A DNA stretch of 64,000 nucleotides. Source: Geothrix sp. PMB-07 (GTDB lineage: Bacteria; Acidobacteriota; Holophagae; Holophagales; Holophagaceae). The DNA is taken from the NCBI RefSeq assembly GCF_030758935.1, contig NZ_CP132333.1, forward strand, positions 2,666,992-2,730,991, written 5' to 3'. Below are positions 9,687 to 61,739 of this stretch, piece after piece. Under the pieces are notes generated by a model. The model was not told the origin of the DNA. It saw only the letters and a program-made list of their open reading frames with translations, and did no database searches. The first letter of the stretch is position 1; the number at the start of each line of letters is the position of its first letter. A program made the translations under genes and the position numbers.

Positions 9687-9739
9687 GACATCCCCCGAAA
9701 GCTGGATTCTACCGGCCACTTTGCTAGAATGATCCTTCC

Positions 9740-9829
9740 GGAGAGATGGCCGAGTGGTTGATGGCACCGCACTCGAAATGCGGAGACGGGGAAACCTGTT
9801 CGGGGGTTCGAATCCCTCTCTCTCCGCCA
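9740..9829 (+). tRNA. tRNA-Ser (anticodon CGA)
   Basis: A 90-base class II tRNA. The acceptor stem GGAGAGA pairs with TCTCTCC; the anticodon loop is CTCGAAA (anticodon CGA); there is a long variable arm, the T-loop GGTTCGAATCC and an encoded CCA. The AT-richer foreign region starts just after its 3' end, consistent with tRNA genes being integration targets. Confidence 0.97.
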
Positions 9830-9996: not shown

Positions 9997-10443
9997 TCAG
10001 GATGCGAGTGCCTTTGGGGCGAACCCGAGCACCCTCCGCTGCTCCGCCCAATCCAGCGGAAGCTTGGCCAGCAATCGCTTGACTGTCAGCGCCTTTGGCT
10101 GACGGCCTTCCAGGATCGCTTCCACGATATCTGGCGCCAGCCAAGCCAGGGGAAGCAGCCGCGCCACATGCTGACCAGAGATCCCATAGGCTTTGGCGAT
10201 ATCTTCTCTGGACTTCGCCTGCCCGGAGAGCAATAGGTCATACCAGTACCGGCCCCGGGCCACGGCCTGGATCAGGGGCTTGTCCACCTGCGCATCCCGT
10301 CCATCACTGTTCGCGCCGGGGATCACGAACCTCAGCCCGCGACCTCCTCGCTTGAAATGAGTGCCTTCGCTCAAGGTGATGGGCTCTGAAGGGTTCTCGG
10401 TCGTCGCCAGTCCCACCAACGATCTCAGAGCCGCCGAGTTCAC
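9997..10443 (-). pseudogene. C-terminal remnant of a large serine recombinase-type protein
   Basis: The open frame of 148 codons has no N-terminal catalytic domain. Its body matches the C-terminal tail of serine-recombinase-family proteins: a lone helix-turn-helix-like segment (SREDIAKAYGISGQHVARLL) is followed by APDIVEAILEGRQPKALTVK and LPLDWAEQRRVLGF. Intact members carry a resolvase domain several hundred residues upstream. Here the frame ends abruptly at 10443, where half an attC site begins, so the 5' part of the gene has been replaced by the cassette array. Position beside tRNA-Ser suggests a decayed integrated element. The nominal start codon is a chance ATG. Confidence 0.7.
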
Positions 10444-10494
10444 CTCCGCTCATCGTCTCGGTGCAGGCGTGGCCGCTTAGCTGCTTTCGTTAGG
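10443..10494 (+). repeat. attC 1 (right half only)
   Basis: The right arm of a class B (about 124 bp) attC: the GTGCAGGCGTGGCCGCTTAGC segment followed by an R' box GTTAGG at 10489-10494. The left arm and R'' are missing, replaced by the recombinase remnant. Confidence 0.85.
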
Positions 10495-10500
10495 GCTCTC

Positions 10501-10809
10501 GTGGATCCTTTCACCCCATTTGAAGTCGAGGCTGCTGCTGGTGCGGCTTCCGATGGTGTCTTATCCATCTGGGGCTGGTTCCAACGTCATGCGAGCTTCC
10601 TTAGCCGAATCGCGAACATATGGGCGGTCCTTCTTTTCTGGGCCTGCAGCCCATTAGCAATCTGGGGCTTCTACCAACTGTTCAGGCACAACAGTTCCAT
10701 CTGGCTTCTTCTAGTTGGTATACCCTTGGCGCAATCCGCCTCAGTTCTTTGCCTTTGGGCTCGACAAACCCAGCAGTTCCTCTCAGTCGGTCGGCATCCC
10801 GTTCGCTGA
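10501..10809 (+). CDS. Cassette 1: small membrane protein
   Basis: An unrecognised 102-residue protein. Two hydrophobic segments (about residues 38-60, WAVLLFWACSPLAIWGFY, and 67-87, IWLLLVGIPLAQSASVLCLW) predict an inner-membrane hairpin. The start is a GTG six bases after the attC 1 R' box, with no separate Shine-Dalgarno sequence. About 50 bases separate its stop from attC 2. The 3' part of this cassette (10727-10759) is identical over 33 bases to cassette 15, and the similarity continues patchily to the attC, so the C-terminal codons may be recombined cassette sequence rather than original gene. Confidence 0.55.
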   Translation: MDPFTPFEVEAAAGAASDGVLSIWGWFQRHASFLSRIANIWAVLLFWACSPLAIWGFYQLFRHNSSIWLLLVGIPLAQSASVLCLWARQTQQFLSVGRHPVR

Positions 10810-10858
10810 ACCTGGTCCGGGCATCTCGAAACCCGGGTGGGTTCCAACGTCATCGGGT

Positions 10859-10967
10859 GCCTAACCTTCCGCTCAACTCGGACCCTATCGCTGCGCGATA
10901 GAGTCCTCAAACAATTCAGCGGCCATGTCCCCGCAGCAATAGGGCCGGTTAGCTTCACTCGTTAGGC
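10859..10967 (+). repeat. attC 2 (class A, 109 bp)
   Basis: R'' GCCTAAC at 10859, R' GTTAGGC at 10961-10967. Inner stem CCCTAT/ATAGGG and an L' box GGTTAGC. Class A is the commonest type in this array. Confidence 0.95.
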
Positions 10968-10972
10968 TACCC

Positions 10973-11275
10973 ATGTCTGATCTCGATAATCCTGAAGAAG
11001 CGATCTACACACTTCACTTCTTGTCAGAGTTATATCCACCCGCTCGAATGGCTGGGCTGAAGCAAATCCGGCAAGAGGAATTCGCTGGGAAGCTCTTTGT
11101 GTCTGAGTGGCTCATTATTAAGCCAGAGTTTCAAAAAATCGAGAAACGGTTGCCTGAATTCAGAGTCAAAATGATGCAGCTACGGATTCACAAGCCTGAC
11201 AATGAAAAGTGGTGCATCGTTGACTGGAAATTGCTCCGTAAGGCCATCGACCACGGTTACGCCGTTGCTGTGTAG
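10973..11275 (+). CDS. Cassette 2: hypothetical protein
   Basis: A 100-residue soluble protein with no signal peptide or membrane segment; I do not recognise the family. It is rich in charged residues (EEAIYTLHFLSELYPP, KIEKRLPEFRVKMMQLRIH) and ends with an aromatic/basic stretch around WCIVDWKLLRKAID. The ATG is only five bases after the R' box of attC 2, so no independent ribosome-binding site fits. The last base of its TAG stop is the first G of attC 3. Codon use is lower in GC than the backbone. Confidence 0.75.
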   Translation: MSDLDNPEEAIYTLHFLSELYPPARMAGLKQIRQEEFAGKLFVSEWLIIKPEFQKIEKRLPEFRVKMMQLRIHKPDNEKWCIVDWKLLRKAIDHGYAVAV

Positions 11276-11399
11276 CCTAACCTCTCGCTCAAGTCGGACC
11301 CCGCCTGCATTGCCTTCCGTTCTCTCTCAACATTTTGCTATCCCAGGCTCCGCTCATCGCCTCGACGCAGGCGTGGCCGCTTAGCTTCACTCGTTAGGC
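11275..11399 (+). repeat. attC 3 (class B, 125 bp)
   Basis: R'' GCCTAAC at 11275, R' GTTAGGC at 11393-11399. The stem includes CCGCCTGC pairing with GCAGGCG near the right arm. Confidence 0.95.
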
Positions 11400-11407
11400 G
11401 CATCTCA

Positions 11408-11860
11408 ATGAGAGTTCAAGTCCAGCATCTCTTCCTTGGATTCTGTCTGCTAATGACTGGATGCAAGCACGAAACAAAGGTTCACGAGCTTAAGGATGTG
11501 TTTGAGTCATTTGGGCGTCATAAACCTGAAACGCAGTTCCCATTTTTCGTTTTAGGTGATGAAGCCAGAAGGAAGCTGGACAAGAACAAACTAGAGCTTT
11601 TCACAAAGGCGCAGACCGACATAGATTTGATCAATTCTCGCCAACAGCCAATTTTCTGCAAACAGGTGATGGTTGTCTCTGATGGGGGCACAACCTCATT
11701 TGAAGGTCCTGAATACAACATCACCAGGCACAGTCATCTCGACCACCTGAACGGCCTGCCATGTATTTGGCGTGGTATTACCATAGAGTTCAAAGTGGCT
11801 AGTCCTGGAAACCAGGAATTGAAAGAGGTTCGACAAACCTGGGTTGAGTTCCTGCCCTGA
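11408..11860 (+). CDS. Cassette 3: putative lipoprotein
   Basis: A 150-residue protein beginning with a short basic n-region and hydrophobic core ending in the lipobox-like LLMTGC (Cys19), so it is probably a membrane-anchored lipoprotein exported by Sec. The mature part (EARRKLDKNKLELFTKAQTD, SDGGTTSFEGPEYNITRHSH) matches no family I recognise. The ATG is eight bases after attC 3. The stop precedes attC 4 by three bases, the usual tight cassette packing. Confidence 0.75.
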   Translation: MRVQVQHLFLGFCLLMTGCKHETKVHELKDVFESFGRHKPETQFPFFVLGDEARRKLDKNKLELFTKAQTDIDLINSRQQPIFCKQVMVVSDGGTTSFEGPEYNITRHSHLDHLNGLPCIWRGITIEFKVASPGNQELKEVRQTWVEFLP

Positions 11861-11863
11861 TGC

Positions 11864-12019
11864 GCCTAACCCTCCGCTGCACTCGGACCCCGCCTGCATT
11901 GTCTTCCGCTCTCTCTCAGCTTCTCGCTATCTCGGCTTCCGCTCAACTCGGACCCTATCGCTGCGCGCTAGTGTCCTCAAACAATTCAGCTGCCAGGTTC
12001 CCGCAGCAATAGGGCCGGT
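11864..12019 (+). repeat. attC 4, left part (hybrid class B/A, interrupted by IS)
   Basis: Begins as a class B attC (R'' at 11864) and switches near 11942 to a class A body (CTCAACTCGGACCCTATCG), continuing to CCGGT at 12019. There the IS200-type element starts. The remaining L' and R' boxes are on the other side at 12675-12695. Confidence 0.85.
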
Positions 12020-12676
12020 AACGATCCCCCGGCAAAGCCGGGGGCCTTATTATGTGAGCCGCTCAAAGCGGCTAAACGGGGTCGCTAACGCGGCCCCGAA
12101 GGTTGGAGCCACCTACTCGGTGGCCTCCTAGCGCCAAAGCTCCAGCTTCTCCAATCGTTCTTCCTCGCGTTCCTGGTTCTGGATGTACTGCCGTATCTGA
12201 TGCTCGTCCTTCCCTACCGTCGACACCAGAAATCCTCTCGCCCAGAAATGCTGACCCGTGAAGTTCCTCTTCGTTTCTCCATATACACGGGCCAGATAAA
12301 TCGCGCTCTTACCCTTCATAAACCCCACTACCTGCGATACGGCATACTTCGGCGGAATCGCCAACAACATATGTACGTGATCTGCCAGCAAGTGCCCTTC
12401 CAGCACTTTGCTTTCTTTCTGCCCAGCCAGCTGCCTGAACACTTCACCCAATCGCTCTCTCACCCTCCCATACATCACCTTCCTTCTTCGTTTTGGCACG
12501 AACACTACGTGATACTTACATTCCCACCTTGTGTGACTTAAACTTTCAAACAAGTCCATCTCAGTTCTCCTCAAGTGTGCTTGGCGGCTCACCTGATCAG
12601 TTCAGCGATGGACTCCCGTAGCTGTCAAACTCCGACTGTCGCCCCCGCATAGCGGGGGGCCTACCTTATGTTTTGG
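12020..12676 (-). mobile_element. IS200-type insertion sequence inside an attC site
   Basis: An element of about 657 bp with a single tnpA on the minus strand and subterminal hairpins at both ends. The left-coordinate end has a stem of five C's and GGC around AAA at 12026-12044; the other end has CCCCCGC/GCGGGGG near 12641-12657. Both are flanked by similar ATAAGG and GGCCCCC-type words. No terminal inverted repeats or target duplication are expected for this family. Extra stems lie between 12058 and 12130. It splits the L' box of attC 4; a GGT shared by both flanks leaves the junction uncertain by three bases. Confidence 0.85.
12128..12559 (-). CDS. tnpA: IS200/IS605-family transposase TnpA (Y1 HUH)
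   Basis: Single-strand transposase that cuts and joins IS ends as ssDNA. The 143-residue protein has the family's hallmarks in order: LSHTRWECKYHVVFVPKRRR at the N-terminus, the HUH metal site in LADHVHMLL, the FMKGKSA motif, and the catalytic Tyr in QIRQYIQNQ. The length fits TnpA of IS200. I start at the ATG at 12559 (MDLFESLSHT); an upstream in-frame ATG at 12592 adds 11 residues with no family support. The gene appears intact, so the copy may still be active. Confidence 0.93.
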   Translation of the reverse strand: MDLFESLSHTRWECKYHVVFVPKRRRKVMYGRVRERLGEVFRQLAGQKESKVLEGHLLADHVHMLLAIPPKYAVSQVVGFMKGKSAIYLARVYGETKRNFTGQHFWARGFLVSTVGKDEHQIRQYIQNQEREEERLEKLELWR

Positions 12677-12695
12677 TTAGCTTCGTTCGTTAGGC
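12675..12695 (+). repeat. attC 4, right part
   Basis: The L' box GGTTAGC and R' box GTTAGGC (12689-12695) that complete attC 4 on the far side of the IS200-type element. Confidence 0.85.
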
Positions 12696-12727
12696 ATCTC
12701 CGAAAACTCTAGCAAAGAGCCGCCACC

Positions 12728-13078
12728 ATGCCCGCACGCGAGATCTCAAAGCTGCTTTTCACGACTGTCTATCCGCTATACGTCCAAAAGGCCGAGCGAA
12801 AGAACCGGACTAGAGACGAGGTGGACACGATTATCTGCTGGTTGACGGGTTACAGCCAAGAACAACTCAACCAGCACAAGGCTGTGAACATTGATTTCCA
12901 GGCCTTTTTCGACCAGGCTCCGACCATTCATCCGAATAGCTCTAAAATTACGGGTGTCGTTTGTGGCGTTCGGGTCGAGGAGATTCAGGATCCAATCACA
13001 CAGAAAATCAGGCACCTCGATAAGCTCATTGATGAACTCGCGAAGGGCAAATCCATCGACAAGATTTTGCGCCAATAG
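12728..13078 (+). CDS. Cassette 4: DUF2200 family protein
   Basis: A 116-residue cytoplasmic protein matching DUF2200 over its whole length: the TTVYPLYVQKAERKNRTRDE start, the IICWLTGYSQ motif, ITGVVCGVRVEEI and the ending HLDKLIDELAKGKSIDKIL. Function is unknown; the family is widespread in bacteria and is seen on mobile DNA. Here it has a normal leader of 32 bases after the attC, unlike most cassettes. It ends 37 bases before attC 5. Confidence 0.88.
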   Translation: MPAREISKLLFTTVYPLYVQKAERKNRTRDEVDTIICWLTGYSQEQLNQHKAVNIDFQAFFDQAPTIHPNSSKITGVVCGVRVEEIQDPITQKIRHLDKLIDELAKGKSIDKILRQ

Positions 13079-13115
13079 GCCGAGGCCAATCGAATGACAT
13101 CCCCAACCAGCATCT

Positions 13116-13182
13116 GCCTAACCGTTCGCTCAAGCGGACCCGTGCGCAGGCGCCCGGTCCGCTTAGCTCATTCCCGTTAGGT
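13116..13182 (+). repeat. attC 5 (class C, 67 bp)
   Basis: R'' GCCTAAC at 13116, R' GTTAGGT at 13176-13182. The arms GCTCAAGCGGACC and GGTCCGCTTAGC pair perfectly except for one extra C in the left arm. That is the extrahelical base typical of attC sites. Confidence 0.95.
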
Positions 13183-13190
13183 CGCCTTTC

Positions 13191-13568
13191 ATGACTGTCG
13201 ATGCAAACCCAAAACGGAATCGCATCTACTGGATCGGTCTGATCATCTACATCAGTTACTCCCTACTAACACTCAGCTATTGGATCTGGGATTGGTTCCA
13301 CAACCATGGAATGAAGCGTTTTTTCCTTGGGACCTGGTGGATCGGCACTGCACCAGCGATGTTGATTCCAACCTTTCCAAGCTCAGTTTCAATCGGGATC
13401 ATTTTCCTTCCCCTTCCTGCATGGCTAGATTCATTCCTGGCAAAGCACAGCTTCGCCTTTATGCTCATGATCTGGCTCTGGCTCGCGCTTGTCGGGTTCA
13501 TTCAATGGTTTATTGTGGTTCCACACATTTGGTCAAAACTGCGGGGCAAACGCGCCCAGGCGGCCTAA
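13191..13568 (+). CDS. Cassette 5: small integral membrane protein
   Basis: A 125-residue protein with three clear hydrophobic segments (about residues 12-34, YWIGLIIYISYSLLTLSYW; 45-75; and 88-110, FMLMIWLWLALVGFIQWFIV) and a basic C-terminus (KLRGKRAQAA). Family not recognised. The ATG lies eight bases after attC 5. The TAA stop is inside the R'' box of attC 6 (GCC TAA), so the last codon and the stop are supplied by the recombination site. Confidence 0.75.
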   Translation: MTVDANPKRNRIYWIGLIIYISYSLLTLSYWIWDWFHNHGMKRFFLGTWWIGTAPAMLIPTFPSSVSIGIIFLPLPAWLDSFLAKHSFAFMLMIWLWLALVGFIQWFIVVPHIWSKLRGKRAQAA

Positions 13569-13689
13569 CCCTGCGCTCAACTCGGACCCAGCCGCGAGCG
13601 GCTGAGTCCTTGCTTCCTGGCAACTCAGACTTCCCTTCTCCGCCAATCGCTTCAGCCGCGGCTGGTCCGGTTAGCTTCTCTCGTTAGGC
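13563..13689 (+). repeat. attC 6 (class D, 127 bp)
   Basis: R'' GCCTAAC at 13563, R' GTTAGGC at 13683-13689. A distinctive stem with CCAGCCGCGAGCGGCTGAG on the left and CAGCCGCGGCTGG on the right. The only one of its type here. Confidence 0.93.
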
Positions 13690-13695
13690 GTTCAT

Positions 13696-14106
13696 GTGAT
13701 CTTGCGGCTCACGAAGAAACAAACTCAAGCAATTCACCTCGCGCTAACGGGGTTTGCCTTCTTCTGCATGATCCAGGCCATGTACTACCCATTCGTTGGC
13801 CATCCAAGGTGGTGGCAAATTCGATTCTTCTCTGACATTGGTTGGTTTATCGGCATTCCGCCGCTGCTACTTGGCCGTTGGCTAATCGAACGCATCCCGG
13901 CGCTAATGAATCAGCCTTTCGCTTGGTCACTCGCACTGGCTTGGGCTCTAATCATTCCATTCCCCATATCGCTGGGGCTGAATCGCCTAACCTCTCGCTC
14001 AACTCGGACCCCGCCTGCATTGCCTGGCGTCCTCTTTCTTGCTCTGGCTATCTCGGCTTCGCTCAGCGCCTCGGTGCAGGCGGGTCCGGTTAGCTTCATC
14101 CGTTAG
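13696..14106 (+). CDS. Cassette 6: small membrane protein reading through attC 7
   Basis: An open frame of 136 codons starting at a GTG six bases after attC 6. Three hydrophobic segments are visible (about residues 13-32, ALTGFAFFCMIQAMYYPFVG; 44-62; 76-95, SLALAWALIIPFPISLGL). No stop occurs before attC 7: from residue 97 the reading frame is attC sequence (NRLTSRSTRTPPALPG) and it stops at a TAG inside the R' box. The gene has probably lost its own stop, or the attC-encoded tail is part of the protein. Family unknown. Confidence 0.6.
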   Translation: MILRLTKKQTQAIHLALTGFAFFCMIQAMYYPFVGHPRWWQIRFFSDIGWFIGIPPLLLGRWLIERIPALMNQPFAWSLALAWALIIPFPISLGLNRLTSRSTRTPPALPGVLFLALAISASLSASVQAGPVSFIR

Positions 14107-14108
14107 GC
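13985..14108 (+). repeat. attC 7 (class B, 124 bp)
   Basis: R'' GCCTAAC at 13985, R' GTTAGGC at 14102-14108. Fully overlapped by the tail of the cassette 6 frame. Confidence 0.95.
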
Positions 14109-14132
14109 CTTCCAATATTCGGGGAGCAATCC

Positions 14133-14354
14133 ATGTGGGACTTCCTCGCAGCAATTCTAGAAATCGCCACAGCAGCGACTCCGATTCGCGTGTTCGTGGC
14201 TCTGATTCCAACTCTTCTCATTGCTAGTCTCGTATATTGGGCTGTTCCTGATAAATCAACAGGCGCCTGGCTATTCGGAGTAATTTTTGTAGTGGGCATC
14301 TCGCTCGGCTTCTGGTGGCACTTCCGAGAGCTAAAATATGATCGTCAAGCCTGA
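14133..14354 (+). CDS. Cassette 7: two-helix membrane protein
   Basis: A 73-residue protein with two hydrophobic segments (about residues 4-36, including PIRVFVALIPTLLIASLVYW, and 46-63, WLFGVIFVVGISLGFWW) and a charged C-terminus (HFRELKYDRQA). A GGGGAG ribosome-binding site lies eight bases before the ATG. Family not recognised. It ends three bases before attC 8. Confidence 0.7.
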   Translation: MWDFLAAILEIATAATPIRVFVALIPTLLIASLVYWAVPDKSTGAWLFGVIFVVGISLGFWWHFRELKYDRQA

Positions 14355-14356
14355 AG

Positions 14357-14465
14357 GCCTAACCTTCCGCTCAACTCGGACCCTATCGCTGCGCGCTAGT
14401 GTCCTCAAACAATTCAGCATCCGGGTCCCCGCAGCAATAGGGCCGGTTAGCTTCTCTCGTTAGGC
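14357..14465 (+). repeat. attC 8 (class A, 109 bp)
   Basis: R'' at 14357, R' at 14459-14465; body nearly identical to attC 2. Confidence 0.95.
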
Positions 14466-14474
14466 AATCCACCG

Positions 14475-14867
14475 ATGGTCGAGATCGTCCTCCAGATCCT
14501 GATTGAGTTTCTAGGCGAACTCCTTCTCATGTTCGGAGTCGAATCGGTTGTCGCCCCATTTCAGCCTGCGAAAGCCACGAATCGAATCCTTGCCTTCTCA
14601 GGACTCTTCATTCTGGCGGTGGCATCCAGTTTGATTTTTTCGCTCTTCGCACCAAACCGTCTTCTTCCACAATTCCGAGTTGCTGGGGTCAGCCTGCTCA
14701 TTTCGCCCATCCTGGTAGGCTCAGTAATGCATATCTTCGGTCAGTGGCGTACCGAGCGCGGGAAACCGATCACTCACCTTGCCACTTTCTGGGGTGGCGC
14801 CTATTACAGTTTCTTCTTCGCACTAACACGGGTCATATTCCTCTATTTCAACACCCCGATTGCCTAA
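14475..14867 (+). CDS. Cassette 8: small integral membrane protein
   Basis: A 130-residue protein with about four hydrophobic segments: VLQILIEFLGELLLMFGV (5-22), ILAFSGLFILAVASSLIFSL (38-57), VAGVSLLISPILVGSVMHIF (69-88) and YYSFFFALTRVIFLYF (110-125). Family not recognised. The ATG is nine bases after the R' box. The Ala codon and TAA stop fall in the R'' box of attC 9. Confidence 0.75.
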   Translation: MVEIVLQILIEFLGELLLMFGVESVVAPFQPAKATNRILAFSGLFILAVASSLIFSLFAPNRLLPQFRVAGVSLLISPILVGSVMHIFGQWRTERGKPITHLATFWGGAYYSFFFALTRVIFLYFNTPIA

Positions 14868-14970
14868 CCCTCCGCTCAACTCGGACCCTATCGCTGCGCG
14901 CTAGTGTCCTCAAACAATTCAACGACTCGGTTCCCGCAGCAATAGGGCCGGTTAGCTTCTCTCGTTAGGC
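14862..14970 (+). repeat. attC 9 (class A, 109 bp)
   Basis: R'' at 14862, R' at 14964-14970. The R'' box supplies the stop codon of cassette 8. Confidence 0.95.
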
Positions 14971-14979
14971 CTCCAACCC

Positions 14980-15234
14980 ATGTCACCCCTCCTTCTCGCT
15001 GCCACGTCGATCCCGCCCATCATTTGGGGGATGAATATCTGGGGCGGGTGGGCTGAGAAGATCGTTGGTCTCCAGATAGATCCCTATTTCTCAGAGTTTT
15101 GGTTGAGAGTATTCCAGATCGAAATCAACAAAGAAAATCGAATCAGATTCATTCGAGCAGCAAGCTTGGTCCTCTCCGTTGTATACCTGATCCTGGTCGG
15201 CGGTTTCCTTCTACTGATAGCACTATGGCCGTAA
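14980..15234 (+). CDS. Cassette 9: small membrane protein
   Basis: An 84-residue protein. There is a moderately hydrophobic N-terminus (LLLAATSIPPIIWGMNIWGGW) and a strong C-terminal membrane segment (about residues 62-82, LVLSVVYLILVGGFLLLIAL), with a basic patch between them (NKENRIRFIRAA). Family not recognised. The start lies nine bases after attC 8's neighbour attC 9, leaving only the R' box as a possible ribosome-binding site. Confidence 0.65.
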   Translation: MSPLLLAATSIPPIIWGMNIWGGWAEKIVGLQIDPYFSEFWLRVFQIEINKENRIRFIRAASLVLSVVYLILVGGFLLLIALWP

Positions 15235-15240
15235 CAGTCG

Positions 15241-15348
15241 GCCTAACCTCTCGCTCAACTCGGACCCTATCGCTGCGCGCTAGTGTCCTCAAACAATTCA
15301 GCCTCCGTGTCCCGCAGCGATAGGGCCGGTTAGCTTCTCTCGTTAGGC
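15241..15348 (+). repeat. attC 10 (class A, 108 bp)
   Basis: R'' at 15241, R' at 15342-15348. Confidence 0.95.
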
Positions 15349-15353
15349 CGCTC

Positions 15354-15704
15354 ATGCCAGACCTGGTAACTCGGCAAGAAATCGTCGAACTGCTGAATTC
15401 CTGGCAGGCAGGAAAACTCAATGCTCAATCTGTTTATGATTGGGCAAACGAACGGTATTCAACTGAACACTGGAATGTCGAAGATGAGATCGTGAACGAG
15501 GTTTTGTCTGAACTTGATATTCTCGACATCAACCTCATCACCACTGACGACATTCCGGTGTTCTTGAAAGTGCTCGCTCTCCCGCCAGCTCAAATTGATT
15601 CAGCCATTGCCATTCTCAAAGCCCATTCTCTGACCTTCAGCATTGAGGCTCGTAAGCAACAATGCCGCAAAGACCCCTTCTATGCCTGGCTTCTCAATGA
15701 ATAA
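15354..15704 (+). CDS. Cassette 10: acidic hypothetical protein
   Basis: A 116-residue soluble, acidic, mostly helical protein (TRQEIVELLNSWQAGKLNAQ, VEDEIVNEVLSELDILDINL, ending KDPFYAWLLNE). No membrane segment or signal peptide. The acidity and small size recall immunity or antitoxin proteins, but I recognise no family and do not assign a function. The ATG is five bases after the R' box. Confidence 0.75.
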   Translation: MPDLVTRQEIVELLNSWQAGKLNAQSVYDWANERYSTEHWNVEDEIVNEVLSELDILDINLITTDDIPVFLKVLALPPAQIDSAIAILKAHSLTFSIEARKQQCRKDPFYAWLLNE

Positions 15705-15715
15705 CACTCCCAGCG

Positions 15716-15839
15716 GCCTAACCCTCCGCTCAAGTCGGACCCCGCCTGCATTGCCTTTCGCTCTCTCTCAGCAGTTCGCTATCTCGGCTCCGTTCACCGT
15801 CTCGGTGCAGGCGTGGCCGCTTAGCTTCATTCGTTAGGC
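15716..15839 (+). repeat. attC 11 (class B, 124 bp)
   Basis: R'' at 15716, R' at 15833-15839. Confidence 0.95.
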
Positions 15840-15843
15840 CCGC

Positions 15844-16056
15844 CTATCTCAGTTGCCCTGTCGGGCCGCTATGACCGTTCGCGCGGCCATTCAACACCGT
15901 TCGCCGTGGCCCACCCAGAAAGGGCCAAACTTCTGCCATCGTCTCGGTAACCTGGGTCCACGACCAGCGTCTAAAGCCTTCAGGTTTCTCGTCCCATCGC
16001 TCTTTCAATCCTTCAAAACCAGGTTTCGCTGCCCGAGTCGCTCTTGTCACCTGCAT
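15844..16056 (-). CDS. Cassette 11: possible reverse-strand ORF
   Basis: This cassette (15840-16064) has no convincing rightward gene. The best candidate is a 70-codon leftward frame from an ATG at 16056, giving a Trp-rich basic peptide (KERWDEKPEGFRRWSWTQV). There is no clear Shine-Dalgarno sequence and I recognise no homologue. The frame remains open upstream into attC 12. It may simply be a non-coding cassette. Confidence 0.25.
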   Translation of the reverse strand: MQVTRATRAAKPGFEGLKERWDEKPEGFRRWSWTQVTETMAEVWPFLGGPRRTVLNGRANGHSGPTGQLR

Positions 16057-16064
16057 CTCGCTCG

Positions 16065-16131
16065 GCCTAACCCTTCGCTCTAGCGGACCCGGGCGCCAGC
16101 GCCCGGTCCGCAAAGCTCACTCTCGTTAGGC
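16065..16131 (+). repeat. attC 12 (class C, 67 bp)
   Basis: R'' at 16065, R' at 16125-16131; the short stem CGGACCCGGGCGCC / GGCGCCCGGTCCG-type pairing resembles attC 5. Confidence 0.93.
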
Positions 16132-16264
16132 CTCGAAAGCAGGTTGGTTTCGGCGGTTCAGGCATTCCGCATTACCCTGTCATCACGAAGCTCGTTCCGT
16201 TCTTTCAAAGGCCTGTCGGTTCTTCCATCGCGCCGGTTCATGCTTCGGCAGAATCAGCGTCTCG
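16132..16264. other. Cassette 12: short cassette without ORF
   Basis: Only 133 bases lie between attC 12 and attC 13. No frame of useful length with a start is visible on either strand. ORF-less cassettes are known in large arrays and may carry promoters or small RNAs; nothing specific is seen here. Confidence 0.6.
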
Positions 16265-16372
16265 GCCTAACCGCTAGCTCAACTCGGACCCTATCGCTGC
16301 GCGCTAGTGTCCTCAAACAATTCAGCAGCCGTGTCCCGCAGCGATAGGGCCGGTTACCTTCCTTCGTTAGGC
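16265..16372 (+). repeat. attC 13 (class A, 108 bp)
   Basis: R'' at 16265, R' at 16366-16372. The L' region reads GGTTACC instead of GGTTAGC. Confidence 0.93.
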
Positions 16373-16373
16373 T

Positions 16374-16658
16374 TCATCTCAACGGCAGGGCACCAAAGGC
16401 CACGAAGGCAAGCACCACAAGCCCAGCTACAACAAAGAAGGCCCCTAGAATTCTCGCTCTTCGGTTTGTATTCGGGCGGTGCACATAAGACTTCAGCGAC
16501 TCGGTTCTTCCAGGAAAAGCCCCTTCAAACGGATCACCGTTTTTTAGATATTTCTTCCAAGTTTTCCAGTAGTGCTTCGGTCAGAGCAACATCCAAAGGC
16601 CAAACCCAAGCGCCATACCTACCCAAGCCACTACAATGGCTAAAACACCAAGCGGCAC
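16374..16658 (-). pseudogene. Cassette 13: leftward membrane-protein gene with an in-frame TGA
   Basis: On the minus strand an AAGGAG site lies seven bases before a GTG at 16658. The frame encodes a hydrophobic N-terminus (VLAIVVAWVGMALGFGLWML), then a TGA at codon 26 (16583-16581). It continues without further interruption for 68 codons (KHYWKTWKKYLKNGDPF, NTNRRARILGAFFVVAGLVV) to a TGA at 16374. Removing the one stop would give a 94-residue protein with two membrane helices. A nonsense mutation is the simplest explanation; a sequencing error or recoding is possible. It is opposite in orientation to the attC sites. Confidence 0.6.
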
Positions 16659-16701
16659 AGCGTCTCCTTTTCATTCAGAGCAATCATGCCATACCCATTC
16701 A

Positions 16702-16810
16702 GCCTAACCTTTCGCTCAACTCGGACCCTATCGCTGCGCGCTAGTGTCCTCAAACAATTCAGCGAGTCGGTCCCCGCAGCAATAGGGCCGGTTAGCTTCT
16801 CTCGTTAGGC
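16702..16810 (+). repeat. attC 14 (class A, 109 bp)
   Basis: R'' at 16702, R' at 16804-16810. Confidence 0.95.
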
Positions 16811-16816
16811 GTTCAC

Positions 16817-17074
16817 ATGGACCACAAGCCCGAAATCGGCGACCAGGTGAAGCTCAGTGCCTTTCTCGGCGACACAATCCCGCCGAAGAACTGCGATCCG
16901 AGCGAGAACTTCTGGAGGCTGATTGGCCAACGTGGCAAGGTCATAGCTGAAATCCCAGGCTCAGATCGTGTTCTCGTTGGGTTTGAATGCTCAATTCAGT
17001 CCTTCGGCCTCCAATGCCACAACCCAGAGCCCAACAGCCTGCGTATCAAATGGGCTGACCTTGAGCGCGCCTAA
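16817..17074 (+). CDS. Cassette 14: hypothetical soluble protein
   Basis: An 85-residue protein, probably a small beta-rich domain (GDQVKLSAFLG, GQRGKVIAEIPGSDRVLVGF, ending NSLRIKWADLERA). It has a Cys in NCDPSENFW and one in LQCHNPEP that could bind metal or pair. Family not recognised. The ATG is six bases after attC 14; the final Ala codon and TAA stop are inside the R'' box of attC 15. Confidence 0.75.
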   Translation: MDHKPEIGDQVKLSAFLGDTIPPKNCDPSENFWRLIGQRGKVIAEIPGSDRVLVGFECSIQSFGLQCHNPEPNSLRIKWADLERA

Positions 17075-17192
17075 CCTCTCGCTGCACTCGGACCCCGCCT
17101 GCATTGTCTTCCGCTCTCTCTCAACTTCTTGCTAACTCGGCTTCGTTCATCGTCTCGGTACAGGCGGGGCCGGTGAGCTTCATTCGTTAGGC
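17069..17192 (+). repeat. attC 15 (class B, 124 bp)
   Basis: R'' at 17069, R' at 17186-17192. Supplies the stop codon of cassette 14. Confidence 0.95.
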
Positions 17193-17554
17193 ACACCCGG
17201 CGCATTCCCATCGTCTTCCGGGTTCGATCCTTCTCAATCGGAGTACGCGGTTCAGCGCCCTGGCTTTACCAATCGCGAATCTCTGCGCCCCGGTAATTCA
17301 AACTCGCCATGAATGGCGGGCTTGCGCTGTCGCGCTGCGCAGTCGTTCTCCGCCACTCCTCCGGTGAATCCAGCCGCTTCTCGTGGCATCCTGGCTCCGC
17401 CGTTCCATCCCTTGCATCACCCCTGGCGCAATCCGCCTCAGTTCTTTGCCTTTGGGTTCGGCACCCCGACCATCCTTCATGTTCGGGCGGCATCCCGCTC
17501 GTTGCACCCACTCCCGACATTTCAACGCACGAGTGGGCTCCAGCTTCATCGGGT
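17193..17554. other. Cassette 15: no convincing gene
   Basis: A 362-base cassette. Overlapping frames exist on both strands, but none has a ribosome-binding site or protein-like composition. The 3' third is shared with cassette 1: 17424-17456 is identical to 10727-10759, and both cassettes end with CATCGGGTGCCTAAC. This looks like a degraded or non-coding cassette related by recombination to cassette 1. Confidence 0.55.
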
Positions 17555-17662
17555 GCCTAACCTTCCGCTCAACTCGGACCCTATCGCTGCGCGATAGAGT
17601 CCTCAAACAATTCAGCGCCCGTGTCCCGCAGCAATACGGCCGGTTAGCTTCTCTCGTTAGGC
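17555..17662 (+). repeat. attC 16 (class A, 108 bp)
   Basis: R'' at 17555, R' at 17656-17662. Like attC 2 it reads GCGCGATAGAG where the others have GCGCGCTAGTG, so the two related cassettes (1 and 15) also share an attC variant. Confidence 0.95.
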
Positions 17663-17668
17663 GTCACA

Positions 17669-18058
17669 GTGAGCCCAGAGCAAGCCCCCGAAATTTCCGA
17701 TTCCGCCCGAGCAGCGATTGCCAGGCGCTACTTCAGCTACATCGGATTCTGGTTTCTCGGTTTCATTGGTTACAGCATCTATGCCGTGAAATCCTCTGGT
17801 ACTACTCGATCATTATTGGGCGGTATATTGGTAGCGCTCATTCTCGCGCCTATGGCTCTGAATAAAAAATATCGGCCCTTCTACCTCTGGTTCCTGATCG
17901 GCGCCTTCATCGCATTCATTGCCTTAATGCAGGCTCAGCCGTATGTTCTGGAATTGAAGCAGAAAAGTGGTGAACGCCTAACTCTCCGCTCAACTCGGAC
18001 CCTATCGCTGCGCGCTAGTGTCCTCAAACAATTCAGCATCCGTGTCCCGCAGCAATAG
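17669..18058 (+). CDS. Cassette 16: small membrane protein with attC-encoded tail
   Basis: A 129-codon frame from a GTG six bases after attC 16. Three hydrophobic segments are visible (about residues 22-40, YFSYIGFWFLGFIGYSIY; 48-64, SLLGGILVALILAPMAL; 71-90, FYLWFLIGAFIAFIALMQ). No stop precedes attC 17. From residue 104 the frame is attC sequence (LTLRSTRTLSLRASVLKQF) and ends at a TAG in the CAATAG of the right arm. Family not recognised; the start and first 100 residues look real. Confidence 0.65.
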   Translation: MSPEQAPEISDSARAAIARRYFSYIGFWFLGFIGYSIYAVKSSGTTRSLLGGILVALILAPMALNKKYRPFYLWFLIGAFIAFIALMQAQPYVLELKQKSGERLTLRSTRTLSLRASVLKQFSIRVPQQ

Positions 18059-18083
18059 GGCCGGTTAGCTTCACTCGTTAGGC
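17976..18083 (+). repeat. attC 17 (class A, 108 bp)
   Basis: R'' at 17976, R' at 18077-18083. Confidence 0.95.
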
Positions 18084-18093
18084 CTCCTCCAAC

Positions 18094-18438
18094 ATGCCAA
18101 TTACCACCTCGGTCAAATCGAAAGCAAATCAAGAACTGGTTGCCTACTGTGCGGCCAAGATTCCTGCTCACGTTCAGGACAAGATCAAGCTGTCGATTAC
18201 TTGGCATGGAAGCAAAGCGACGCTGATTGAACATCGGCCCTATTTCCTTGACTCTTCAAAGTGGATCGACAGCCCGGTCGCTCAACTTCGATTCGATTCT
18301 GCCACTGGCCTCTGGCACCTTTTCTGTCGAGATCGAAACCAGCGCTGGCATTCTTTCCAGCCAATGCCATCCTCTTCAAATCTACACAAGCTCATCGCAG
18401 AAATTGATCGTGATCAAACTGGCATTTTCTGGGGCTAG
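18094..18438 (+). CDS. Cassette 17: DUF3024 family protein
   Basis: A 114-residue cytoplasmic protein matching DUF3024 throughout: CAAKIPAHVQDKIKL, the HRPYFLDSSKW segment, SPVAQLRFDSATGLWHLF, RDRNQRWHSFQ, and the conserved ending EIDRDQTGIFWG. The function of the family is unknown; it is common in proteobacterial cassettes and islands. The ATG is ten bases after attC 17. The stop is five bases before attC 18. Confidence 0.9.
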   Translation: MPITTSVKSKANQELVAYCAAKIPAHVQDKIKLSITWHGSKATLIEHRPYFLDSSKWIDSPVAQLRFDSATGLWHLFCRDRNQRWHSFQPMPSSSNLHKLIAEIDRDQTGIFWG

Positions 18439-18443
18439 GTTCG

Positions 18444-18552
18444 GCCTAACCTTCCGCTCAACTCGGACCCTATCGCTGCGCGCTAGTGTCCTCAAACAAT
18501 TCAACAGCTCCGTCCCCGCAGCAATAGGGCCGGTTAGCTTCCTTCGTTAGGC
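18444..18552 (+). repeat. attC 18 (class A, 109 bp)
   Basis: R'' at 18444, R' at 18546-18552. Confidence 0.95.
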
Positions 18553-18585
18553 CTTGCCCGGTGCATACCGCAGGAGGTTCTATCA

Positions 18586-19104
18586 ATGCGGCGAACTCTG
18601 ATTTCCGTCATTACTTTCTGTTCATTGGCCTGTTCTGGAATTGGTTGGGCCGCTCCACTCAAGGATCCTCTCCTAGAGCGCTTGGTTGGCAATTGGGTGC
18701 TTAGGGGAACGATCGCCAGAAAACAAACCACACACGATGTCGTTACTGAGTGGTTCTTGGATCACCAGTACCTTCGCCTCCATGAGGTATCTCGTGATAA
18801 GGACGACAAAGGGCATCCACTGTATGAAGCAGTTGTGCTCATTGGCTGGGATGAGGTGGCCCTGGAATATCAATGTCTTTGGCTCGACTCCACAGGAGGT
18901 GGTGGCCTTACGGCCCAAGGCATCGCACAAGGCAAACGAAGCGGCGATTCGATTCCCTTCCTTTTTCGAGAGCGCGACGGAACCATTTCCTTCAACAACA
19001 CCTTCTCATATGACAAGACCAACGACTCTTGGTCTTGGCAAATGGATAACGTGAGAAACGGGAAGGCCGTCCCTTTTGGCCGTGTAAAATTAACAAGACA
19101 ATAG
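18586..19104 (+). CDS. Cassette 18: secreted DUF1579-like protein
   Basis: A 172-residue exported protein: signal peptide (ISVITFCSLACSGIGWAAP, cleavage near residue 23) followed by a lipocalin-like beta-barrel pattern. It opens with LLERLVGNWVLRGTI and continues with WFLDHQYLRLHEV and YEAVVLIGWDEVALEYQCLW. The GNW motif and repeated strands fit DUF1579 / THAP4-like ligand-binding folds, but the ligand is unknown. A strong AGGAGG site precedes the ATG, so this cassette brings its own translation start. It is the largest cassette protein in the array. Confidence 0.75.
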   Translation: MRRTLISVITFCSLACSGIGWAAPLKDPLLERLVGNWVLRGTIARKQTTHDVVTEWFLDHQYLRLHEVSRDKDDKGHPLYEAVVLIGWDEVALEYQCLWLDSTGGGGLTAQGIAQGKRSGDSIPFLFRERDGTISFNNTFSYDKTNDSWSWQMDNVRNGKAVPFGRVKLTRQ

Positions 19105-19131
19105 CCAAAACTCCTATGCCTGTCCCGCAAG

Positions 19132-19239
19132 GCCTAACCCTCAACTCAACTCGAACCCTATCGCTGCGCGCTAGTGTCCTCAAACAACTCAGCTCCCGTG
19201 TCCCGCAGCAATAGGGCCGGTTAGCTTCCTTCGTTAGGC
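19132..19239 (+). repeat. attC 19 (class A, 108 bp)
   Basis: R'' at 19132, R' at 19233-19239. Confidence 0.95.
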
Positions 19240-19302
19240 GGCCAATCAACAGGCATTCCCGTTCCTGTCATAATGGGTTCTGAGGTAACCCGGAGATCAC
19301 TA

Positions 19303-19569
19303 ATGCCCATCATCTCCATGTTTTATGGAATCATCATTCGGTTGTACCTACTCGACAACCTGCATCACAACTTGCCCCACATTCACGCCAAATACGCTGA
19401 GTTCGAAGCCTCGATTGGACTCGCTGATGGCGATGTCCTGGCAGGCGAACTCCCTCGCAAACAGCTTCGACTCGTTCAAGCGTGGATTGAACTCCATCGT
19501 GATGAGCTTCTCGCCGATTGGGAATTGGCTGTCAGCGGGGAAAATCCGTACAAAATCGATCCTCTGTGA
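19303..19569 (+). CDS. Cassette 19, gene 1: DUF4160 protein (putative toxin)
   Basis: An 88-residue protein matching DUF4160: the MPIISMFYGIIIRLYLLD start, the HHNLPHIHAKYAEFEASIGL motif, and ELPRKQLRLVQAWIELHRDEL. DUF4160 genes are typically paired with a DUF2442 gene and the pair is annotated as a toxin-antitoxin module; which partner is toxic is not settled by sequence. I start at the ATG at 19303, where GGAG lies upstream; an ATG at 19273 adds ten residues outside the family. The partner starts seven bases downstream. Confidence 0.88.
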   Translation: MPIISMFYGIIIRLYLLDNLHHNLPHIHAKYAEFEASIGLADGDVLAGELPRKQLRLVQAWIELHRDELLADWELAVSGENPYKIDPL

Positions 19570-19576
19570 GGTTGCC

Positions 19577-19825
19577 ATGTATTGGGATGTCACGTCAGTA
19601 AAGCCTCTTCCCGATTATCAGCTCTATCTTGAGATCCAAGATGGCCGTAAAGGGGTCTTCGACCTCAAACCGTACCTTGATAGAGGCGTGTTCCGCGAAC
19701 TCAAAGATGTTAATTACTTCAACCAGGTTGGCATTTTATTCGGCGCTATCACCTGGCCCCATGACCAGGATATTGCGCCAGAAACGCTTCTCGCTGAAAT
19801 GAGGCCAGTGGGCCCGTCCGCCTAA
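19577..19825 (+). CDS. Cassette 19, gene 2: DUF2442 protein (putative antitoxin)
   Basis: An 82-residue protein of DUF2442 type (DVTSVKPLPDYQLYLEIQDG, GVFDLKPYLDRGVFRELKD, the ITWPHDQDIAPETLLAE ending). Directly follows the DUF4160 gene, with GAGG ahead of the ATG. The final Ala codon and TAA stop are within the R'' box of attC 20. As one of only two genes in a two-gene cassette, it supports a toxin-antitoxin role for the pair, which could stabilise the array against loss. Confidence 0.87.
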   Translation: MYWDVTSVKPLPDYQLYLEIQDGRKGVFDLKPYLDRGVFRELKDVNYFNQVGILFGAITWPHDQDIAPETLLAEMRPVGPSA

Positions 19826-19943
19826 CCCTCCGCTCAAGTCGGACCCCGCCTGCACTGCCCTCCGCTCTCTCTCAGCATTTCGCGATCTCGGCTCCGCCTA
19901 TCGTCTCGGTGCAGGCGCGGCCGCTTAGCTTCATTCGTTAGGC
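19820..19943 (+). repeat. attC 20 (class B, 124 bp)
   Basis: R'' at 19820, R' at 19937-19943. Supplies the stop of the DUF2442 gene. Confidence 0.95.
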
Positions 19944-19959
19944 CACAGGAGATAGTGAT

Positions 19960-20379
19960 ATGCCTGTACCATCGGAATATCAACGTGCCACTCAGCACTT
20001 CGAGAAATTCATGCACGATGCCTGTGAAGCCTCAGGTCTAGCGACTTCCCACATGGCTTACAACATGGTCGTTGGTGTTCTCCATACCTTCCGTCGACGC
20101 CTGCCCATTAAAGACGCTCTTCGTTTTGCCAACATACTTCCGCCTGTACTTCGTGCACTCTATGTCGTCGATTGGGACCCGGATGAGGCAATATTGCCCT
20201 TCCAGGATGTCGCAACTATGACGAGGGAAGTAAAGGCCCTTCGGGCAGAACACAATTTCTCTCCCGACACCGCCATTCACGATGTTGCGGTTGCTCTCCG
20301 CCGCAATCTAATCGAATCCGATTTCGACCAACTCCTTTCAACACTTCCCAAGGGCGCTGTTGAGTTCTGGCAGGTATAA
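19960..20379 (+). CDS. Cassette 20: DUF2267 family protein
   Basis: A 139-residue soluble helical protein matching DUF2267: MPVPSEYQRATQHFEKFM, then NMVVGVLHTFRRRLPIKDAL, FANILPPVLRALYVVDWDP and a C-terminal helical repeat (DVAVALRRNLIESDF, LSTLPKGAVEFW). The function is unknown; the family consists of two similar helical halves and is linked by neighbourhood to stress genes elsewhere. An AGGAG site precedes the ATG. This is the last cassette before the array is cut by IS remnants. Confidence 0.88.
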   Translation: MPVPSEYQRATQHFEKFMHDACEASGLATSHMAYNMVVGVLHTFRRRLPIKDALRFANILPPVLRALYVVDWDPDEAILPFQDVATMTREVKALRAEHNFSPDTAIHDVAVALRRNLIESDFDQLLSTLPKGAVEFWQV

Positions 20380-20432
20380 CAGGCGTATCCATGTGATGAA
20401 TAATCATCAACCAAACGCTCATCCTGGCTGCG

Positions 20433-20475
20433 GCCTAACCTTCCGCTCAACTCGGACCCTACCGCTGCGCGCTAG
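20433..20475 (+). repeat. attC 21 (truncated)
   Basis: R'' GCCTAAC at 20433 and the class A left arm up to GCGCGCTAG at 20475. The right arm and R' are missing, cut by the IS5-type end beginning GGTCTGTTTTCAAAG. Confidence 0.88.
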
Positions 20476-20570
20476 GGTCTGTTTTCAAAGTCAAGAAAGG
20501 CAAATGGACGTAAGGGGTTGTACAAATTGCCTAACTGCGGTACCTCATGGGTATGACGTTGAGGTAGAGC

Positions 20571-20855
20571 GTGGCGAGAACTTTTCTGACTGAACGAATG
20601 TGGGCCAGGCTAGAGCCTCTGCTGCCGAGCGAGCAGGGTGGAATGGGGCGCCCTCGCCTGGACAATCGCCCCATCGTTGAAGCGATCCTCTGGAAGCACA
20701 GAACGGGAGCGCCCTGGAGAGATTTGCCTGAATCCTTCGGACCTTGGAACACGGTCTTCACGCGCTTCAATCGGTGGAATCGGAGCGGAGTCTGGCAGCG
20801 GGTCCTCGAAGCCCTTCGAGGTGAAGCGGATTGCGAATGGGTCATGGTCGACGGA
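20571..20855 (+). pseudogene. N-terminal fragment of an IS5-family (IS427-type) transposase
   Basis: About 95 codons encode the DUF4096-type N-terminus of IS5-family transposases (ERMWARLEPLLPSE, GRPRLDNRPIVEAILWKHRT, GAPWRDLPESFGPWNTVFTR, CEWVMVDG). The catalytic DDE part is absent: at about 20855 the sequence changes to an IS481 fragment on the other strand. The IS end is probably at 20476, where attC 21 is cut. Confidence 0.8.
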
Positions 20856-21104
20856 ATGGGCATCGATGGCGATGTGCAAATGCTCCCAGCCAATGCCCCG
20901 CTGGCGGGTGCGACGGTCACCATGGATCCGGTGTCCCGCGCCCTGGGTCCTCCCAAGCTTCTTGATGTCGAGGTGAAGGAGGCCGCCTGGCTCGGCGATC
21001 TCGTAGCGCCTGGGCGGTTCCTTCTTCTCCAGGGCCGACCACCGGGAGAGTCCCTTTCGGCGCAGGATGAGGCCCACGGTGGACCTTGGCATTCCGAGCA
21101 TTCG
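20853..21104 (-). pseudogene. IS481-family transposase fragment
   Basis: Minus-strand frame with the middle part of an IS481-type transposase: the end of the HTH region (MPRSTVGLILRRKGLSRWSA), then RYEIAEPGGLLHLDIKKLGR with the first catalytic Asp, and GIGWEHLHIAIDAHS. Both ends are missing: the left is joined to the IS5 fragment at about 20855, the right to an IS3 fragment near 21110. Confidence 0.8.
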
Positions 21105-21121
21105 ACAGTCCTCTACATGGC

Positions 21122-21380
21122 CGCCGTTTCAGCCAGCCGGACCGCCCACGGAGAACGCCTTCATCGAGAGCTTCAACGGCAGGCTGAGGGATGAGTGCTT
21201 GAACACGGAGATATTCCTCCATGGCAGAAATAAGGGGCAAGCTGGCCGCCTGGCGCTACGACTACAACCACCGCAGGCCCCACAGCGCACTGCGCGATCT
21301 GACACCGGCCCAGTTCGCAGCTCAGAATCCCGCGCCCGCAAGGAGAAGGCCCGCCCCGAGGGGCGGATCTTCTCCTGCCT
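21122..21380 (+). pseudogene. IS3-family transposase (OrfB) C-terminal fragment, frameshifted
   Basis: Carries the conserved end of IS3-family integrases: PTENAFIESFNGRLRDECLN with the catalytic Glu. A frameshift near 21220 moves the rest to another frame (LAAWRYDYNHRRPHSALRDL followed by TPAQFA), ending at a TGA near 21380. The upstream two thirds of the gene are absent. Dead remnant. Confidence 0.82.
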
Positions 21381-21660
21381 GACTCACCCAGCTTGTGTGA
21401 GGGCGTATCCTGATTCGACCAACCCGCTCCCAAGGCCAAAAACACTGGCGAAGGGGCCCCTCTGAGGTCCGATCTTCCATATTGAACCTGCGATAGAAAA
21501 CCGGAGTGGGTCACCACTTCGGGGGACACCTCTCACGAATGATGACCGTTGGGGGCCATGGTCACCACCGTTCAGCGGAATCCATGCCATTCAGTCGCGT
21601 TCTGTTGTTCCATGGGGGACTTCATTCCTCGGGCGAATCTGCGGCAGGAGCACCATCCAC
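21381..21660. other. Non-coding stretch after the IS remnants
   Basis: 280 bases with no convincing gene on either strand. Probably more decayed insertion-sequence or intergenic DNA; no terminal repeat or attC box is recognisable. Confidence 0.4.
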
Positions 21661-22044: not shown

Positions 22045-22178
22045 ATTCGACGGCCTCACGTGCCTCTTATTTCAAACCGCATTGCTGCTCGATGAAACCT
22101 CGAACCATTCGGCATCCCACTTCCCAGGGCCACAAGATCAGTGCCAACCCTTCGTTCCCCAGGCTGACCCAGCTTCGT

Positions 22179-23018: not shown

Positions 23019-23215
23019 AGGTTATGTCAAATTATGCAAATGCACTGATAGATCTTTGGGCTGTCCTTCAGGGGTCGGGTCCTTTAAATTGCAAGAAAGA
23101 GCCCAGGATACGCATGTACACCTGAGGCTCCCAACGGACGGCACTCCCTGACAGACTTGACGCACTTGCCGCCCCAGACCCCTCCCTCTCAACCCGGTTC
23201 CCTCCAGAAGCCCCC

Positions 23216-61648: not shown

Positions 61649-61739
61649 GGAGAGTTGTCCGAGTGGTTTAAGGAGCACGCCTGGAAAGTGTGTGTAGGTC
61701 AAAAGCTTACCGGGGGTTCGAATCCCCCACTCTCCGCCA
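61649..61739 (+). tRNA. tRNA-Ser (anticodon GGA)
   Basis: A 91-base class II tRNA: acceptor GGAGAGT with ACTCTCC, anticodon loop CTGGAAA (anticodon GGA), long variable arm, T-loop GGTTCGAATCC and encoded CCA. Its last 20 bases (61720-61739) are the start of a downstream tandem repeat. Confidence 0.97.

Follow-up and report, generated by a model that had tools for sequence, protein, structure and literature searches.

A large integrase-less cassette array beside tRNA-Ser in Geothrix sp. PMB-07, probably a satellite array of an integron distributed over the chromosome

The window analyzed here, a stretch of 64,000 nucleotides at positions 2,666,992-2,730,991 of the 4.24 Mb single-contig genome of Geothrix sp. 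PMB-07, contains a cluster of attC sites lacking integron integrase (CALIN) at 10444-20479 (window positions unless given in kb, in Mb or with the prefix C1 for the chromosome). This array is probably a satellite of a chromosomal integron that is distributed over several places of the genome and is served in trans by an integron integrase (IntI) encoded elsewhere. According to the proposed mechanism, which is read from sequence comparison, one array headed by intI (693-719 kb) and two headless ones, at 1195-1217 kb and in the window, would have been built from common attC types, with the IntI from 719 kb, or that of a solitary intI at 166 kb, acting in trans. The enzyme would excise cassettes at the folded bottom strands of attC sites and put them back into any of the arrays, again at attC sites; both cassettes and attC types would in this way circulate between the arrays. 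The first seeding of the array beside tRNA-Ser would be an additional, presumed step of the model. CALINs are described in the literature as mobilizable in trans by a functional IntI (PMC12444791).

Identity of the attC sites

A previous sequence-only reading of this DNA had counted 21 attC sites with GCCTAAC and GTTAGGC ends, and direct reading together with a motif scan arrives at the same number, including 18 intact sites, one that is chimeric and split by an insertion sequence (IS), and two that are truncated. GCCTAAC occurs 20 times and GTTAGGC 18 times in the array, and a 21st GCCTAAC, at 20529, sits within the bordering IS outside the array. The intact sites are 67, 108-109 or 124-127 nt long. 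The uniformity ascribed to them earlier is present within classes (mean column identity of 94% for ten 109-type sites and 84% for six sites of 124-127 nt; there are two 67-nt sites) and does not extend to the whole array with its three size classes.

A 27-base attC pattern, searched genome-wide with at most three mismatches, has 82 matches in three clusters, and the reversed pattern, used as a control, has none. Folding as single-stranded DNA was predicted for the 78 uninterrupted attC sites of the three PMB-07 arrays, with the bottom strand stabler than the top strand in all of them, at least two extrahelical bases in 77, the R box paired at six or more of its seven positions in 69, and the L box paired in 76. 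For the window sites the corresponding figures are 18 of 18 for the stabler bottom strand, 18 of 18 for the paired R box and 17 of 18 for the paired L box. Five bottom strands are stabler than their dinucleotide shuffles (z -3.0 to -4.35), and the effect is smaller for three top strands (z -2.4 to -2.8). Rfam searches at the gathering threshold returned only two tRNAs for the window and nothing for the loci L019 and L022.

No tyrosine recombinase was found in the window, as had been noted before: all 13 PF00589 matches of the genome map elsewhere, and no window protein matches TIGR02249, the integron integrase profile. The array thus combines far more than the two attC sites with R and L boxes and foldable bottom strands that characterize a CALIN with the lack of an adjoining integrase, and it is an authentic CALIN. 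A complete integron has intI with attI in cis; the window has no such arrangement, and it is the 719-kb array that has an intI, at C1:719309.

Integrases and arrays elsewhere in the genome

The sequence-only reading had attributed the sites to one dedicated integrase, either lost or located elsewhere, and had proposed a genome search for intI and further attC copies. Besides the 82 pattern matches in three arrays, this search yields two full-length intI genes (C1:166045-166989 and C1:719309-720253), which contradicts the loss and agrees with attC sites of one integrase system whose enzyme is encoded elsewhere. With 458.8 and 453.4 bits, both score well over the TIGR02249 cut-off (265 bits), and they are 68% identical to each other. 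The 719-kb IntI aligns with the solved integrase 2a3v ('IntI4'; residues 25-334 of 336, E 3.3e-80), which we take to be the Vibrio cholerae enzyme. Its gene is divergent from a 26-kb headed array at 692.8-719.0 kb with approximately 36 attC sites, and a second integrase-less array occupies 1,195.4-1,217.5 kb. A script paired 34 (headed), 30 (1.2 Mb) and 19 (window) attC sites, 83 altogether, with few ends left unpaired. The 166-kb intI is solitary, with no GCCTAAC in the surrounding 40 kb searched.

Among 77 genomes of the family, 46 have an intI over the cut-off, and the attC pattern is matched once or more in 52. Named genomes with the attC signature include a Geothrix terrae contig, a Holophagaceae metagenome-assembled genome (MAG), and an Acidobacteria groundwater MAG; the signature also appears on a contig labelled Prochlorococcus (L036), perhaps by contamination.

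A common attC pool

The three PMB-07 arrays have common attC types, which are mixed between arrays and separate by species. The 109-type sites do not group by array, the same-array nearest-neighbor value being 0.349 versus 0.361 in shuffled data, with 1137 of 2000 shuffles reaching the observed value. Sites of the 124-type group by species when PMB-07 is compared with G011 and G018, two sister genomes (0 of 1000 shuffles reach the observed value for the three species together, and 0, 1 and 0 of 1000 in the pairwise comparisons), and do not group by array within PMB-07, G011 or G018 (206, 811 and 534 of 1000 shuffles, respectively). Which attC type dominates depends on the genome and is common to its arrays: the 109-type accounts for 25 of 33, 17 of 27 and 10 of 18 sites in the three PMB-07 arrays, and the 124-type dominates in each of the six arrays fetched from G011 and G018.

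Cassettes shared by headed and headless arrays in sister genomes

The trans-acting maintenance envisaged by the sequence-only reading finds support in putative footprints of cassette traffic in the two sister genomes. In G011, two cassettes of the headed array (0.56-0.58 Mb) were found again at 100% identity in a headless array (1.53-1.55 Mb). Five cassettes of G018 are common to its headed array (0.70-0.71 Mb) and headless arrays (2.17 and 2.60 Mb), four of them at 100% and one at 99.8%, and one further near-identical cassette links two headless arrays. Altogether, seven near-identical cassettes connect headed arrays with CALINs approximately 1 Mb or more away, and six of these seven matches stop at the R' box of attC. 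When borders were checked in ten near-identical pairs, nine of which are from G011 and G018, the match stopped at the GTTAGG box or at most four bases after it in nine pairs, and in five pairs it started there; three headed-to-CALIN pairs are free of mismatches from one R' box to the next.

Since no cassette pair between species exceeds approximately 92% among the matches listed, the identity within genomes is not mere conservation. The sharp borders at R' boxes argue against homologous recombination or gene conversion as the source of the identical cassettes, and they support the view that these match ends may be the footprint of integrase-mediated transfer in trans. In one G018 pair (calin2 5725-6172 and sci 9276-9723, oriented coordinates; L274, L272), the cassette gene is 99.8% identical and the attC sites diverge part-way.

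The tRNA-Ser interval

The position of the array beside a tRNA-Ser gene, pointed out earlier, is confirmed by tRNA-Ser(cga) at 9740..9829 (+). The same reading had placed the array among backbone genes, a description that does not hold, as the array opens a variable interval that runs from this gene to tRNA-Ser(gga) at 61649..61739 (+). This interval (9829-61649) measures 52 kb in PMB-07. Of 15 relatives, 10 have both tRNAs within the 20 kb fetched, at a distance of 1.7-16 kb, whereas the second tRNA lies outside that stretch in the remaining five. It is likely an integration hotspot. G019, the nearest relative examined, whose neighbor gene shows the highest similarity (90%), is alone among the fifteen in that attC sites, three of full length and a truncated one, immediately follow tRNA-Ser(cga), in the same orientation as in the window. 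No cassettes are common to this site and the window, which we count in favor of the satellite reading. In G019, intI is present only as fragments with stop codons. In G021, 12 attC left halves start 6.6 kb beyond its second tRNA-Ser.

Weighing the explanations

Several observations weigh against the satellite reading. No window cassette is near-identical to any cassette in the other PMB-07 arrays; the closest cross-array match is that of the DUF2200 cassette, whose counterpart in the 1.2 Mb array is 92% identical over the full cassette length, and the window gene-less cassette is 81-90% identical to those of the other arrays. With these as the best matches, any exchange with those arrays would be older than that in G011 and G018; that the cassette traffic reaches the window array as well is inferred. 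Between the headed and 1.2 Mb arrays of PMB-07, the only near-identical match is a 1444-bp stretch at 99.8%, maybe an IS, within two long cassette intervals (arr1 21939-24220 and arr2 12773-14638, oriented coordinates). Among the ten pairs with checked borders, the left edge continues into a similar upstream attC in five, and in one the match stops inside attC; homologous recombination between attC repeats or gene conversion could produce identical cassettes, and repeat misassembly may have done so in the single-contig assemblies of G011 and G018. In addition, PMB-07 and G019 have no homology in the sequence that separates the tRNA from the array, and their CALINs may therefore have arisen separately.

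That the window array is a dead relic, i.e., a piece of a headed integron that was displaced by IS-mediated rearrangement and is no longer recombined, seems unlikely to us. Such decay would agree with the truncation of both outermost attC sites, with the attC split by an IS, with the lack of a near-identical cassette tying the window to other arrays, and with the proposal in the IntegronFinder 2.0 paper that CALINs are degraded integrons (PMC9024848); however, 18 of the 21 sites are intact and foldable, the attC sites do not cluster by array, and in the sister genomes near-identical cassettes are common to headed arrays and CALINs. The IS at the right border has a near-identical copy bordering the 693-719 kb array, but the 377 bp at the start of the 986-bp query recur elsewhere in the genome seven times at 100% and once at 99%, making nine matches at 99-100% with that of the window, and its occurrence at the ends of two arrays may be coincidental. 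Much less probable still is the arrival of the array with a mobile element at tRNA-Ser, its cassettes having been assembled by a foreign integrase. Although the interval is long compared to the ten relatives in which both tRNAs were seen, and genes beside the 1.2 Mb array (L023 10478-12843, cut off at the array border) look conjugation-like by eye without a family match, the window attC sites belong to the same types as the sites of the other two arrays, with which they are intermixed, the window lacks a tyrosine recombinase, a 109-type attC used as query has no match in a plasmid collection at E 1e-5, and the 124-type window sites do not group with G011 or G018 instead of the other PMB-07 arrays. 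A satellite array served in trans is the explanation that we prefer.

Orientation to replication

In PMB-07, dnaA lies at C1:4,235,849-4,237,270 on the + strand, and the GC skew flips its sign between 2.05 and 2.10 Mb (positive in 11 of 14 samples before this point and in 4 of 21 after it). At 0.69-1.22 Mb the cassettes run on the - strand, and at 2.68 Mb they run on the + strand, as do all 82 pattern matches. Considered together, these data mean that the attC bottom strand of every PMB-07 array belongs to the lagging-strand template. The contigs of G011 and G018 begin with dnaA on the + strand, and their skew is noisier (positive in 7 of 10 and 9 of 10 samples in the first half, and in 1 of 10 and 4 of 10 in the second). 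The lagging-template orientation was found for 63 of 64 pattern matches in G011 and for 59 of 72 in G018, including a 1.97 Mb array whose side of the terminus is uncertain; the G018 headless arrays at 2.55, 2.60 and 3.58 Mb have the opposite orientation. The headed arrays of PMB-07, G011 and G018 lie at a similar distance from the origin; a single event is their probable source, and they do not represent three independent cases.

Loot et al. (PMC5371416) reported that in 25 of 30 sedentary integrons the leading template carries the recombinogenic strand of attC, and arrays of opposite orientation in the same set never exceeded 22 cassettes. In contrast, the headed array of PMB-07 has approximately 36 sites on the lagging template. 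Such an array, with approximately 36 cassettes, offers a natural test of whether the direction of replication sets the balance between storage and turnover.

An IS200-like element in attC sites

One window attC is interrupted by an IS200/IS605-family element (12017..12674, -; ends inferred from the empty attC) that encodes a Y1 HUH transposase (TnpA, 12128-12592; PF01797, E 6.9e-37). Six full copies are present in the genome, five of which are identical and one of which has a single-base difference; those outside the window are at C1:701428, 1199802, 1205542, 1215415 and 2979311. Five copies interrupt attC sites that belong to different cassettes, always at the same place, which is 3' of the bottom-strand TAACC of the L box, and the sixth lies in a palindrome carrying the TAACC motif. 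A derivative in G009 is also inside attC. All six copies and this derivative follow TAACC, and the flanks rejoin to an unbroken attC with nothing gained or lost, as in IS200/IS605 insertion. G+C-rich inverted repeats were seen by eye near both ends of the element. By position and strand, the six targets are on the lagging-strand template, a preference that is known for this family (PMC7923331).

TAACC occurs 27 times in a 136-kb genome sample (both strands) and 193 times in 55 kb of arrays. Because the motif is rare in the sample and dense in arrays, and insertions are on the lagging-template strand, homing of the element to hairpins as such is not needed. A preference for the L box beyond TAACC is suggestive, with p of approximately 0.003 against all in-array TAACC and 0.22 against bottom-strand TAACC. 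Papers on IS1111 and attC reportedly exist. By eye, relatives of the element with visible flanks in G035, G070, G042, G069, G072, G013 and other genomes, G009 excepted, are not in attC sites. A family-wide search for attC/IS junctions gave exact matches only in PMB-07 (five) and G009 (one) and one-mismatch matches in PMB-07 (one) and G013 (one), with two-mismatch matches being approximately as frequent as in the reversed control. An IS200/605 element adjoining a CALIN has been reported in Halorhodospira halochloris (PMC7923331).

A wider model would treat these features as parts of one genus-level distributed integron, with one integrase, one headed and several large headless arrays, and one attC pool; the lagging-template orientation of several arrays, including all three of PMB-07, would mean high turnover rather than storage, and the IS200-like element would exploit the TAACC core of the attC boxes. 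In our opinion, the case for this model and the case against it are evenly balanced.

Cassette contents and layout of the array

The cassette proteins had been described as mostly uncharacterized, which stands: 5 of 17 scanned proteins have a Pfam match, and all five domains (DUF2200, DUF3024, DUF4160, DUF2442 and DUF2267) are of unknown function. A PADLOC scan of 10 of the 17 gave one match, that of the DUF3024 protein to the candidate family PDC-S43. Cassette genes are mostly on the + strand and run from a GTTAGGC box to the following GCCTAAC, and a few cassettes have no clear gene.

One gene-less cassette (17187..17554, +) belongs to a multi-copy family of 367-370 bp with 11 full copies over the three PMB-07 arrays (L126-L133), including a position beside the attI of the 719-kb integron. 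Partial relatives (75-77%) occur in G006, G012 and G049, so that 4 of 77 genomes, PMB-07 included, are matched; a partial relative is also present in the window at 10722-10858. A coding function of the 369-bp cassette was rejected within the limits of the alignment tests made: none of the frames of its 208-nt main block stays open throughout the ten copies (a minus frame does so in six), its variable sites are spread evenly over codon positions (28, 26 and 24), and single-base gaps are present. Each of the two short end blocks, however, has frames without a stop in every copy. A conserved RNA structure of the sense strand found no support (two of 91 predicted pairs with two-sided change, covariation term +1.58). 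No sigma-70-like promoter was found in the cassette, which is weak evidence given that such promoters are called not findable in silico (PMC11014356).

To the left of the array, the gap after the tRNA contains a 148-aa open reading frame (ORF; 9997..10443, -) with a weak, partial and sub-cut-off ParB-like match. The array begins with the right half of a truncated 124-type attC (10444..10495). The intact sites, like all attC sites here on the + strand, were placed by motif scan and folding: the 109-type at 10859..10967, 14357..14465, 14862..14970, 15241..15348, 16265..16372, 16702..16810, 17555..17662, 17976..18083, 18444..18552 and 19132..19239; the 124-type at 11275..11399 (125 nt), 13985..14108, 15716..15839, 17069..17192 and 19820..19943; a 127-nt site at 13563..13689; and the 67-type at 13116..13182 and 16065..16131. 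In the chimeric attC split by the IS200-like element (11864..12695), a 124-type left part is joined at a short common stretch to a 109-type site without R box (left portion, 11864-12016). Recognizable cassette genes, all on the + strand, are those for DUF2200 (12728..13078), DUF3024 (18094..18438) and DUF2267 (19960..20379) as well as a two-gene cassette for DUF4160 and DUF2442 (19273..19825). The array ends with an attC left half (20433..20479) cut by an IS, whose remnants (20473..21465, +; first ORF PF13340, IS4/5-type) form the right border.

Comparison with known systems

Vibrio superintegrons have a near-uniform attC type. The likeness to them that the sequence-only reading had seen holds in part, as intI is divergent from its array, gene-less cassettes occur (PMC11014356), and IS are embedded (PMC11023631); it fails in that the attC types are those of Holophagaceae (52 of 77 genomes) and the orientation to replication is the opposite (PMC5371416). 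Acidobacteria attC sites have already been recognized as a taxon (PMC8352920). Within the open-access literature, as far as its texts were accessible, no report of identical cassettes linking headed and headless arrays was found, and on Geothrix integrons nothing beyond a sewage paper was found.

In Shewanella, attC sites far from intI, including single sites, are likewise known from genomes with intI (CALINs and SALINs; PMC9229058), but the CALINs there have 2-6 attC sites compared to 19 and 30 paired sites in the headless arrays of PMB-07. The Xanthomonas CALINs away from ilvD are similarly headless, lie at recurring loci, and occur in genomes that may keep a headed integron (PMC12444791), whereas the present system may be distinguished by large arrays, common and intermixed attC types, and near-identical cassettes linking headed and headless arrays. 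CALINs in general likewise comprise two or more cassette-bearing attC sites that have no intI nearby, with a mean of almost 6 sites per CALIN versus 21 in the window (PMC9024848); in contrast to them, the window array has a host in which intI is full-length and the headed array is made of the same types of attC, and sister genomes with apparent footprints of cassette traffic. CALINs are often taken as debris, and the footprints in the sister genomes, which link arrays approximately 1 Mb or more apart, suggest that an integron can use headless arrays as live storage; the IS that targets attC, in turn, joins two single-strand DNA systems at one place. The mechanism is known in outline, and it is the arrangement of the arrays and the footprints that are less usual.

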